Assembly: GCA_003132585.1 (NCBI GenBank) | Contig: PKYG01000089.1 | Span: forward strand, 1 to 48,523 | DNA from: Actinomycetota bacterium | GTDB lineage: Bacteria > Actinomycetota > Thermoleophilia > UBA2241 | Length of the DNA: 48,523 nucleotides | Reading direction: 5' to 3' | Shown here: positions 4,244 to 8,595 of the stretch, piece after piece | Position numbering within the stretch: the stretch's first letter is position 1 | Layout of the letters: each line of letters starts with the position of its first letter | The notes under the pieces: model-generated | The model's database searches: none | Told to the model about the DNA's origin: nothing | What the model saw: the letters and a program-made list of their open reading frames with translations, nothing else | Program-made: the position numbers and the translations under genes

Positions 4244-5584
4244 TCAGCTCAGATGATCGTCGATGAAGTGCGTCGAGACCGTCCCGGCGATGAACAGTGG
4301 GTGCTCGAGCACGACGCGGTGAAAGGGGATCGTCGTCTTGATGCCCTCGACGATGAACTCCTCGAGTGCCCAGCGCGACCGCGCCAGGCACTCCTCGCGG
4401 TCGCGCCCCCAGACGATGAGCTTGCCGAGCAGGCTGTCGTAGAACGGCGGCACGGTGTAACCCTGGTACACGTGGCTGTCGAGCCGCACCCAGGGGCCGC
4501 CCGGCGGCATCCACCGTGTGACCAGGCCGGGCGACGGCAGAAAGCCGTTGTCGGGGTCCTCGGCGTTGATGCGGAACTCGATCGCGTGTCCGACGACGGC
4601 GATCCCCTCCTGGGCGAAGGGTAGCGGGTCTCCGGCGGCGATACGGATGCCGGTCTTGACGACGTCGACGCCGGTGACCATCTCGGTGACGCAGTGCTCG
4701 ACCTGCACGCGCGTGTTCATCTCCATGAACGAGAAGCGACCCTCCGGATCGAGCAGGAACTCGACCGTGCCGGCGCCCTCGTATCTGGCAGCTTTGGCAG
4801 CTTCAACGGCGGCGTGACCCATGGCGGCACGCGTCTCGGCGGAGACCGCCGGCGAGGGCGCCTCCTCGATCAGCTTCTGGTGGCGCCGCTGGATCGAGCA
4901 GTCGCGCTCGCCGAGGTGCACGACTTCGCCGTGCGCGTCGGCGAGCACCTGGATCTCGACGTGCCGCGGCGCCGCGATGTACTTCTCGACGTACACGGCG
5001 CCGCTGCCGAAGGCGGCCTGCGCCTCGTTCTGAGCCTGACGCACGGCGACGTCGAGCTCGGACTCCTCGTTGACGATGCGAATGCCCTTGCCGCCGCCCC
5101 CGGCTGCGGCCTTGATCATCACAGGCAGGCCGATCTCGCGCGCGATCGCGGTCGCTGCGGCGACATCGGCGACGACGCCGTCCGACCCCGGCGTGACGGG
5201 CACGCCGGCGGCGGCCATCGTCGCCCGAGCCGCCGCCTTGTCGCCCATCAGCTCGATCGACTCCGGCTGCGGCCCGATGAACTTGATGCCTTCGTCGCGG
5301 CAGAGTCGCGAGAAGGAGGCGTTCTCGGCGAGGAAGCCGTAGCCCGGGTGGATTGCCTCGGCGCCGCGCTGCTGGGCCGCCGTGATCAGCGCCGGCATGT
5401 GCAGGTAACTGGCCGTCGCCGGCGGCGGCCCGATGCAGACCGCCTCGTCGGCGTAGGCGACGTGCAGCGAGTCGGCGTCGGCCTCGGAGTAGACCGCGAC
5501 CGTGCCGACGCCCAACTCCTTGCACGCACGAATCACGCGGATCGCGATCTCGCCGCGGTTGGCGATGAGGATCTTCTCGAACAT
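4244..5584 (-). CDS. accC: acetyl-/acyl-CoA carboxylase biotin carboxylase subunit
   Basis: 446 residues, the normal length for AccC. It begins [20 protein letters not shown] and carries the ATP-grasp features: the glycine-rich loop [12 protein letters not shown], the [14 protein letters not shown] strand, [16 protein letters not shown], and the catalytic [15 protein letters not shown]. It carboxylates biotin on a carrier protein using ATP and bicarbonate. No accB, accA or accD lies beside it, so the carrier must be encoded elsewhere. On the minus strand an extended -10 (TGCTATAAT) ends eight bases before the ATG and there is no Shine-Dalgarno sequence, so the mRNA may be leaderless. Confidence 0.96.
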
Positions 5585-5929: not shown

Positions 5930-7972
5930 GTGACGAGTAGCAAGAAGCGTTTGGCCGTCGTCGACGACGATCCGGCTCTCCGCGAAGAGCTCAGCAAGCT
6001 CTTCGCCGACACCTTCGAAGTCGACGCGTACCCGGGCGAGCCCGGCACGCTCAAGCAGCTGCGCGAACGACCTCCGGACGTACTCCTCACCGAGGTCGCG
6101 ATGGAGCGCATCGACGGCTTCGACATTCTTCGACTGATGAGCACCACGCCCGAGCTGCGCGCCGCGCCGGTCGTGGTGCTCTCTTCGCTCAGCGACTTCC
6201 CCACGTTCGAGAAGGCGCACCGCCTCGGCGCCATGGAGTTCGTCACCAAGCCGTTCCGACCGGAGGAGCTGCGCGCCAAGATCGACGTCGTGCTCGCCGC
6301 CCGCCGTCAGCGCGGCGTCGGCCGGCTCAAGCTGGGCGCGCTGCTCGTCGCCAGCGGTCTGGTCACGCAGGAGCAGCTTGACAAGGCGCTGGCGCGCCAG
6401 AAAGAGATGGGCGCCCGTCTCGGCGAGGTGCTCGTCCGCGACGGGCTGGTCGCCGAGACCGATCTCGTCAAGGCGCTCGCCGGCCAGATGCACATCCCGA
6501 TCGTCGACCTCGGCCAGGTGGCGCCGACACCGGCCGCGATGAGCCTGTTGCCGCGCGATTTCATCGTGCGCCACCGTGTGCTGCCGCTGGCGATCGACGA
6601 CAAGGGCGCGATCAGGCTCGCAATGACCAACCCGCTCGACGTCGTCTCGCTCGACGAGGTCGGCCTGCGGGCGAAAAAGCGTGTCGTGCCGGTCATCTGC
6701 TCGGAATCCGCGTTCGACGAAGCCGTGGCCGTATACTTCAGCTCGCGCGGCAAGCTCAAGGAGGTCCGGGACGAAGAGGTCCGCACCAGCGACGATGTCG
6801 CCGCCGCGCTCGACGTGTCGACGATCGAGATCGTCGACAGCCTCATCACCGACGCCGTGAGCATGAAGGCCTCGGACATCCACCTCGAGCCGCGCGAGAA
6901 CGTGCTGCACGTGCGCTGCCGCATCGACGGCGTGCTGCACGACATGCGCGAGTACTCGGTCGATCTGCAGCCCGGCATCGTCAGCCGGCTCAAGATCATG
7001 GGCAACCTGAATATCGCTGAGCGCCGCCTGCCACAAGACGGGCGCACCTCATTCGAGACGTCGACCGGCGAGACGGTCGATCTGCGTCTCGCCTCCATCC
7101 CCAGCCTGTTCGGCGAGAACATCGCGATCCGCATCCTCGAGGTCTCGCCCTTGCCGCCGACGCTCGCATCCCTCGGTCTTGCCGGCGACACGCTGGAACG
7201 CTACGAAGAGGCGCTGCTCATCCCCGAGGGCGGCATCGTGATTTGCGGGCCGACCGGCTGCGGCAAGTCGACGACCTTGTACACGACGCTGGAGCTGATC
7301 AAGTCGCCCGAGCGCAAGGTCTACACCGTCGAGGACCCGATCGAGCGCCGGGTGCAAGGCATCGTCCAGAGCGAGGTCAAGCCGGGCATCGGTCTCACGT
7401 TCGCGCGCGCCCTGCGCGCCCTCGTGCGCGCCGACCCCGACGTGATCATGGTCGGCGAGATCCGCGACGTTGAGACCGCCAAGATGGCCGCCGACGCGGC
7501 CATCACCGGCCATCTCGTGTTCACGACCCTGCACACCAACGACGCGCCATCGGCGGTCAACCGCCTGGTGGAGATGGGTGTGCCACGCTACCTCGTGGCG
7601 GCGGCCTACCGCTGCATCGTCGCGCAGCGCCTCGTGCGCCGCCTCTGCCGCCACTGCCGCACAACGGAGACGATCACCGACAACCGCTGGATCGACCTCG
7701 GTCTGGGCGCACCGCCGAGCAAGAAGATCAAGGTCTACCAGCCGGCCGGCTGCGCGAAGTGCTTCGGCACCGGCTACAGCGGCCGCGCCGGGCTCTACGA
7801 GGTGCTCACCGTCGACGACGAGATCCGCGAGATCGTCGCCACCGGCGGTTCCGTCGCCGAGATCAAGCGACTCGCCAAGGCACGCAGCATGAAGACGATG
7901 CGCGACGACGGCATCGCCAAGGTACTCGACGGCACGACGAGTTACCTCGAACTGGTTCGCGTCACAATCTAG
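5930..7972 (+). CDS. type II secretion/type IV pilus assembly ATPase (GspE/PilB family) with N-terminal pseudo-receiver domain
   Basis: 680 residues from GTG 5930, preceded by AGGGGAGG. Residues about 6-125 form a response-regulator receiver fold: VVDDDP at the acidic pocket (Asp12-14), Ser85 in place of the Thr/Ser switch and Lys107 in TKPF. The position that normally holds the phosphoacceptor Asp is Glu55 (LLTEVAM). Next comes an MshEN/T2SSE N-terminal region (about 130-270), then the ATPase: Walker A GPTGCGKS at 440-447, VEDPIE Asp box, RADPDVIMVGEIRD Walker B, TGHLVFTTLHTND His box, and the paired CxxC zinc module ending GRAGLYEVL. It powers pilus or pseudopilus assembly at the inner membrane. 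The usual pilT/pilC/pilin genes are not in the window. The receiver fusion is unusual. Confidence 0.92.
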   Translation: MTSSKKRLAVVDDDPALREELSKLFADTFEVDAYPGEPGTLKQLRERPPDVLLTEVAMERIDGFDILRLMSTTPELRAAPVVVLSSLSDFPTFEKAHRLGAMEFVTKPFRPEELRAKIDVVLAARRQRGVGRLKLGALLVASGLVTQEQLDKALARQKEMGARLGEVLVRDGLVAETDLVKALAGQMHIPIVDLGQVAPTPAAMSLLPRDFIVRHRVLPLAIDDKGAIRLAMTNPLDVVSLDEVGLRAKKRVVPVICSESAFDEAVAVYFSSRGKLKEVRDEEVRTSDDVAAALDVSTIEIVDSLITDAVSMKASDIHLEPRENVLHVRCRIDGVLHDMREYSVDLQPGIVSRLKIMGNLNIAERRLPQDGRTSFETSTGETVDLRLASIPSLFGENIAIRILEVSPLPPTLASLGLAGDTLERYEEALLIPEGGIVICGPTGCGKSTTLYTTLELIKSPERKVYTVEDPIERRVQGIVQSEVKPGIGLTFARALRALVRADPDVIMVGEIRDVETAKMAADAAITGHLVFTTLHTNDAPSAVNRLVEMGVPRYLVAAAYRCIVAQRLVRRLCRHCRTTETITDNRWIDLGLGAPPSKKIKVYQPAGCAKCFGTGYSGRAGLYEVLTVDDEIREIVATGGSVAEIKRLAKARSMKTMRDDGIAKVLDGTTSYLELVRVTI

Positions 7973-7983
7973 GACGGCGCACC

Positions 7984-8595
7984 CTGAGCGGGATCGACAT
8001 CCTCTCGTTCCTGTACATCATGCTGGTGTTCGTCGTCCTGTCGCCGGTCGTGCAGCTCGAGCAGCTCGATCTGCGCCGCTACGTCGCGCGGCGACGCTTG
8101 GGCAAGCGCCGTCGCACATACGTGGTCACACTCATCCACCGCATGGAGACGCTGGCGCTGGTCGGCGTGCCTGTTATCCGGTTCATGTCGCTGACGCGCG
8201 CCGACGAAGTCGCGCGCGCACTCGCCGCGGCACCGCCAGGCACGCCGATCGATCTCATCCTGCACGTGCCCGATGGGGTCGTCGTCGACGGCGAGCAGAT
8301 CGCCGCGGCGATGGCGGCCTGCAGCACGGCCGTGACCGTCGTCGTGCCGCACTACGCCCTCGGCGACACGGCGCCGGTGCTCGCCGCGGCGCAGCGCGTC
8401 GTCGGCGGTCCGCGAACGCTAACAGATCACAGAGAGACTGAAGCCGATGAGGCGGACGCTGAGCTGCTGCGCCAGGCGTCCGCCCTGCTCGATCTCTACC
8501 CGCAACCGCCGCGGCGCCGTCCGGCGCTCGTCTTCGTGCCGCTGCCGAGCGCCCAGCGCCGCGATCCCGCGGACCGAGCCAGGGCGCGCCGGTAG
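7984..8595 (+). CDS. SDH_sah (Clp-fold serine proteinase) family protein, degenerate catalytic site
   Basis: The frame runs on from the ATPase stop at 7972. AGGA sits nine bases before a CTG at 7984; the first ATG is 8020, so the start is uncertain. An N-terminal hydrophobic segment (FLYIMLVFVVLSPVV) is followed by VVTLIHRMETLALVGVPVIRF and PIDLILHVPDGVVVDGEQIA, which match the membrane-linked SDH family (PF01972). Recalled family members read HTPGG and HYAMSGGT at two key places; here these are HVPDG and HYALGDTA, so the nucleophile Ser is missing. The C-terminal third is also short. It is probably not an active protease. Tight coupling to the ATPase suggests they work together. Confidence 0.68.
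   Translation: MSGIDILSFLYIMLVFVVLSPVVQLEQLDLRRYVARRRLGKRRRTYVVTLIHRMETLALVGVPVIRFMSLTRADEVARALAAAPPGTPIDLILHVPDGVVVDGEQIAAAMAACSTAVTVVVPHYALGDTAPVLAAAQRVVGGPRTLTDHRETEADEADAELLRQASALLDLYPQPPRRRPALVFVPLPSAQRRDPADRARARR

Follow-up and report, generated by a model that had tools for sequence, protein, structure and literature searches.

The window analysed here, a stretch of 48,523 nucleotides, contains a gene for a PilB-type motor ATPase in which a receiver domain and a c-di-GMP module of the MshEN type are fused ahead of the motor domain. In our opinion, the fact that a second pilus-type motor carries both a receiver and a predicted c-di-GMP sensor is of more interest than the glutamate that has taken the place of the phosphoacceptor aspartate in the window copy, a replacement that matters little outside one genome. 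We would give an even chance to the reading that the protein is a second PilB-type motor with a dual input, phosphorylation and c-di-GMP, and that the copy in the window has lost its phosphorylation input or had it hard-wired. With a receiver and a c-di-GMP sensor of its own, such a motor would bring both signals directly to the machine and, if this reading is true, the window protein and its relatives would form a natural before-and-after pair for the receiver's role on a pilus motor.

Domains of the fused motor

The features of the gene, together with those of its neighbours, are collected in Table 1. The receiver profile of Pfam (PF00072) matches residues 9-118 at 75.8 bits, its cut-off being 30.2. 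In an AlphaFold2 model based on an alignment of 45 sequences (A1), residues 6-128 form five alternating strands and helices, with Glu55 at the end of strand 3, and the ten-residue mean pLDDT ranges from 82 to 95 across residues 1-120. The model as a whole reaches a mean pLDDT of 89.6 and a pTM of 0.63; because of the latter value, the arrangement of the domains relative to each other is not settled. A receiver fold at the N-terminus of a PilB/GspE-type ATPase had been described in the initial annotation, and this description is borne out by the profile search, which could have denied the receiver identity, by the predicted (beta-alpha)5 fold and by the structural matches of the motor domain described below. 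The residues on which it relied are also as it gave them: Asp12-14, Glu55 (GAG) within LLTEVAM (52-58), Ser85, and Lys107 within TKPF (106-109).

Table 1. Location of the motor gene, its domains and its neighbours in the window
Feature	Position	Strand	Basis
Biotin carboxylase gene, divergent from motor gene	4244..5584	-	Pfam
REC-MshEN-T2SSE ATPase gene, 680 aa, GTG start	5930..7972	+	Translation, domain profiles, orthologues
Receiver domain, residues 7-122	5948..6295	+	PF00072, 75.8 bits; (beta-alpha)5 in model
Codon 55, GAG, Glu replacing the phosphoacceptor Asp	6092..6094	+	Sequence; orthologue codons
Two predicted 24-residue c-di-GMP-binding motifs with 5-residue spacer, residues 134-186	6329..6487	+	NF053729, 63.6 bits; alignment; motif of PMC5013675
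MshEN domain PF05157, residues 188-274	6491..6751	+	70.2 bits
T2SSE motor ATPase domain, residues 298-676	6821..7957	+	PF00437, 389.5 bits; motifs; Foldseek
SDH_protease-like gene, directly downstream of motor	7993..8595	+	PF01972, 127.8 bits

Absent from the initial annotation was the c-di-GMP module, which comprises the motifs and the MshEN domain and extends overall over residues 134-274. The NCBIfam profile for the MshE-related c-di-GMP motif (NF053729) exceeds its cut-off of 38 bits over residues 134-186. The published MshEN consensus consists of two RLGxx(L/V/I)(L/V/I)xxG(L/V/I)(L/V/I)xxxxLxxxLxxQ motifs separated by a 5-residue spacer (PMC5013675), and it fits motif 1 (residues 134-157) and motif 2 (residues 163-186) with a single deviation, KLG for RLG. 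This deviation is common in the family, since motif 1 begins with Lys in 11 of the 14 aligned sequences and with Arg in three. Judged by these motifs, the window motor is predicted to bind c-di-GMP. The receiver had earlier been proposed as a possibly ligand-gated regulator; ligand gating probably does occur in this protein, through the MshEN domain and not through the receiver.

The T2SSE domain has the motor ATPase motifs, with the Walker A sequence GPTGCGKST at residues 440-448, Walker B, the Asp and His boxes and the four cysteines of the zinc pairs all present across the 14 aligned sequences. Its best Foldseek matches in the PDB are PilF of Thermus and PilB of Geobacter, type IVa extension ATPases that likewise carry all T2SSE motifs and are 45-46% identical to it. 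The window motor differs from these in the receiver fused in front, and it also scores below the cut-off of the PilB equivalog (TIGR02538, 521.6 bits against 675.65); the same applies to the GspE equivalog (TIGR02533, 493.7 bits against 630.25). The PilB encoded in the pil cluster of the same genome scores 670.7 bits with TIGR02538. According to the reading that we prefer, the protein would be a second extension motor of type IV pilus machinery with two inputs ahead of its ATPase, the first being the receiver, ancestrally switched by phosphorylation of Asp55, and the second the c-di-GMP-binding MshEN domain behind it.

Glutamate 55 and the fate of the receiver

The window genome belongs to a family (f1) of uncultured Thermoleophilia bacteria, represented by 15 genomes, its own included, and the receiver-ATPase fusion is kept throughout this family (15/15 genomes). 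Thirteen of the other genomes hold a full or nearly full orthologue, and in G010 the gene is split at contig ends. Position 55 is Asp in all 13 aligned relatives and also in G010, thus in 14/14 other f1 genomes; among the 13 codons read, 11 are GAC and 2 are GAT. Among the 20 other PF00072 matches in the window genome (one a partial domain), 19 have Asp, one has Ala and none has Glu. In a tree of the ATPase domain the receiver-fused motors form a single clade of 14 (support 94/94), in which the window is sister to the Asp-bearing motor L009 of G002 (86/81); a tree of the short receiver domain gives a different, weakly supported order within the fused clade. Asp in the 14 other f1 genomes rules out that Glu is ancestral or conserved. 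Glu55 had been put forward in the initial annotation as a feature of design that orthologues would share, and that claim has to be given up, the window gene being the exception among its close relatives. These sequences are most plainly explained by one Asp-to-Glu change on the branch leading to the window. By fold and residue, the window receiver is an Asp-less receiver, or pseudo-receiver; its orthologous family is not.

One base separates GAG from the GAC or GAT of all 13 orthologous codons read, and the assembly is fragmentary (142 contigs), so that Glu55 might be a sequencing or consensus error of this metagenome-assembled genome. We consider this very improbable, as the frame is intact and as Glu55 is flanked by two further changes found only in the window, L54T and L58M, meaning that the stretch differs by more than one base. 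These changes stand out in a receiver that is otherwise well kept. We counted a receiver position as conserved when 11 or more of the 13 relatives share a residue there, which gave 32 positions; the window departs at four (A51V, L54T, D55E, L58M) and is unchanged at the other 28, and the pocket residues Asp12, Asp13, Ser85 and Lys107 are retained. A51V is common to the motors L009 and L021, and the three departures at residues 54-58 are window-only. In a post hoc test, 0.09% of random draws were as tight as the four departures, which span 8 residues (51-58), and 0.3% were as tight as the three window-only ones, which span 5.

With the pocket kept and the deviations gathered at residues 51-58, Glu55 may be a true phosphomimetic that locks the receiver in its active state, leaving the motor permanently licensed and c-di-GMP as the sole gate. 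Published surveys lend this some support. Pseudo-receivers account for ~6% in a representative set from bacteria, and it is Glu that most often stands in for the Asp (PMC12632262); according to a further source, Glu is found in 26% of Asp-less receivers (PMC4395418), and it is described as able to partly activate many regulators (PMC12632262). The same sources report that an Asp-to-Glu change alone is often non-activating, as in CheY, PhoB and Spo0A (PMC4395418, PMC12632262), and that the activity of ChxR is not abolished when its Glu is replaced (PMC4395418), which argues against the phosphomimetic, as does the finding of Glu in no relative examined. Given its published frequency and these non-activating cases, the window Glu represents the commonest kind of exception, with an effect that needs measuring. 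For the window protein the phosphomimetic idea thus keeps a place, given the four preserved pocket residues and the prevalence of Glu over other replacements where receivers lack the Asp; we would rate it somewhat below an even chance. ChxR, the plant PRRs and the fungal Rim15p, as described in these sources (PMC4395418, PMC12632262), likewise have Glu at the phosphoacceptor place of a receiver fold. In the plant PRRs and in Rim15p of Ascomycota, Glu is characteristic of the group; the Glu of the window is confined to a single genome, and the receiver that bears it has a pilus-type motor as its output.

The pocket has also been broken elsewhere in the family, with Asp55 retained: in G003 (D12V, D13S, K107R), in G007 (D12I, D13S) and in G004 (D12S, D13P, S85A). 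G003 and G007 are sisters in the ATPase tree (100/99), and there were therefore at least three separate pocket losses in the 15 genomes, the window counted. The intact pocket is thus ancestral and the state of the majority, and some lineages are without it. The receiver is moreover less well conserved than the other folded domains: its mean pairwise identity is 0.50, and the corresponding values are 0.67 (c-di-GMP motifs), 0.69 (remainder of MshEN) and 0.77 (T2SSE). Pocket losses at differing places and a loosely conserved receiver are what one would expect if the receiver were losing its switch, Glu55 being neutral drift and the domain being retained solely as a folded module for docking or assembly. 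However, the window receiver is otherwise well conserved and keeps its four other pocket residues, unlike the receiver of G004, in which 21 of 40 conserved positions are altered, and for the window protein we regard such loss as less likely than not. The receiver may need no phosphate for its function, since the acidic pair is gone in three other family genomes. The Asp-intact close relatives and the few with broken pockets offer natural variants for asking whether the phosphate matters.

In the dual-input reading, to which we return, the phosphoacceptor would have become Glu in the window lineage by one change, accompanied by two neighbouring changes, with the rest of the receiver conserved. 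The window copy could then no longer accept aspartyl phosphate, and for this reason its receiver would probably be held near one state, most simply an active-like state in which Glu55 pairs with Lys107 and Ser85. In turn, c-di-GMP would be left as the main switch. Against this reading, clustered changes can also mean relaxed constraint rather than tuning. The score below the PilB equivalog cut-off, the surroundings of the gene with neither a pilus nor a kinase gene next to it, the loss of the acidic pair in three relatives and the KLG start of motif 1 weigh against it as well.

Two further observations concern helix 4 of the receiver (window 6194-6229, residues 89-100). It carries a conserved pattern, DFxTFExAxRxG, a possible docking face, which is largely kept in the pocket-broken G003 and G007. 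In the receiver of L020 (G009), 12 of 35 conserved positions are altered, about half of them in helix 4, and the whole phosphorylation pocket is intact.

Distribution of the architecture and its closest known systems

We searched for the fusion with the first 194 residues as query, scoring up to 8 candidates per genome and counting as family-like a match of at least 135 bits that spans receiver and MshEN. In the class sample, among the matches listed, such matches were found in 15/15 f1 genomes and in 0/384 others; weaker matches, of 68.6 bits at most, occurred in 29 non-family genomes, some of them reaching query residue 165-178 (again among the matches listed). In the phylum sample, whose matches contain no other f1 member, 0/395 other genomes matched at the stricter cut-off of E 1e-19, among the matches listed. 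The receiver-MshEN-ATPase fusion was not recognised in other sampled Actinomycetota.

Other relatives were represented by 50 genomes, to which 50 of the 73 loci L045-L117 led. One of these genomes, from Rokubacteria, has on the minus strand a 592-aa receiver-MshEN-T2SSE-like frame (L175) with the same domain order as the window motor. Its Asp is kept. No Walker A can be read in its ATPase part, and it therefore appears to be a non-ATPase relative, possibly a non-ATPase regulator. At L046, L050, L091 and L095 (Elusimicrobia and others), the motor has no receiver of its own, and an independent receiver gene directly adjoins its gene. These loci and L047 were picked because their matches began in the receiver, so no frequency can be derived from them.

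An association of MshEN with receivers was described by Wang et al. 2016 (PMC5013675), whose account includes fusion proteins with receiver and MshEN in one protein, as in the window, and Bd2402 of Bdellovibrio, a response regulator that contains MshEN. The likeness is one of association, and some of these proteins may also be REC-MshEN-T2SSE motors. Taken together with the family-only matches, this association suggests that the window architecture is a clade-specific form of the published receiver-MshEN association. MshE of Vibrio cholerae, like other extension ATPases that bind c-di-GMP, has MshEN with two 24-residue motifs and a 5-residue spacer, followed by T2SSE (PMC5013675), as does the window motor; compared with MshE, the latter has an extra N-terminal receiver, a place outside the pilus cluster and a motif 1 that begins with KLG. 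A review of PilB control (PMC11656802) has a section on why some bacteria have several PilB homologues and, in the portion of its text drawn on here, describes two-component control through separate proteins, with no word beginning 'receiver'. Among open-access full texts we found no described REC-PilB or REC-MshEN-T2SSE motor, a result that speaks for those texts and not for all that is in print.

Platform, kinase and neighbouring genes

The window genome has an ordinary pil cluster on contig C140, with a pilB that includes MshEN, pilT, pilC, a sigma factor and a pilin. The window protein lies outside this cluster, with no pilus genes adjoining its gene, and we infer that it is a second pilus-type motor. 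Matches to the PilC platform profile (PF00482) were found in this genome on C140 only, as two repeats in one 404-aa protein. Across the 15 f1 genomes, 12 have a match and none has a second full PilC of that type; G007 has an additional weak pair of matches, and G006, G011 and G013 have no match, which in such fragmentary genomes is weak proof. The ATPase tree separates the receiver-fused motor from the clade of pil-cluster PilB proteins. Two genomes, G011 (L118) and G008 (L119), contain a third motor copy without a receiver; it shares 62-64% identity and branches as sister to the fused clade. Receiver-less co-orthologues are also present in the sister family f4.

Since a single PilC was found and the fused motor forms a separate clade, this motor and PilB most likely work on one and the same platform, and in the reading of a dual-input second motor the fused protein would probably drive that platform in competition or alternation with the ordinary pil-cluster PilB. 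In its fullest form, that of a two-input alternative motor on one platform which a Glu has hard-wired in one lineage, so that there it answers to c-di-GMP alone, the reading is a tentative one. It is improbable, in our view, that the motor serves a type II-like secretion system or a competence pseudopilus instead of a type IV pilus. Its scores below both equivalog cut-offs and surrounding genes with no evident pilus link would fit such a role; on the other hand, the sole PilC/GspF platform found in the genome sits in the pilB-pilT-pilin cluster, the PilT-like ATPase beside it points to a retractile pilus, and the closest solved structures are those of PilF and PilB.

In three genomes of f4 (G017, G052, G042), a GAF-containing histidine kinase, a stand-alone receiver, a zinc peptidase on the opposite strand and the receiver-less motor follow in this order, and two of the three kinases have a PilS-like membrane domain. 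Kinase and stand-alone receiver thus lie beside the motor in three of the four f4 genomes with a readable upstream region; G037 is without them, and G027 is unreadable upstream. No kinase gene lies beside the fused motor gene in the window. Strong matches to the kinase (E <1e-130) were found in 13/15 f1 genomes, and in the window genome (contig C21, L179 5190-9035) a stand-alone receiver (L163) and a GGDEF gene come after it on the same strand. A GGDEF domain occurs within ~4 kb of the kinase on the same strand in 12/15 f1 genomes (in G013, near a kinase fragment), and the window genome has 32 GGDEF matches. These gene orders suggest that a two-component system and c-di-GMP are both linked to the lineage of the motor.

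We also considered whether the fused receiver is the captured stand-alone receiver of f4. This was ruled out: the f4 receiver has its nearest relative in the window genome in L163, a gene of its own (59-64% identity), and in the receiver-domain tree the fused receivers stand apart as a clade (100/100).

The sigma factor gene of the pil cluster (L143 518-1258, on C140) lies between pilC and the pilin gene and is related to SigB/SigF/SigG. A WhiG label for it was dropped, as its best NCBIfam matches are to SigB/SigF/SigG, below their cut-offs. In Rubrobacter, c-di-GMP is reported to control the pilus through WhiG/RsiG (PMC8325347).

Sequence similar to the N-terminal part of the biotin carboxylase adjoins the motor gene in several relatives, as judged by eye. 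The SDH_protease-like gene downstream covers only the first half of its profile (14-144 of 286), and the same short form lies downstream of the motor in L134 and L044.
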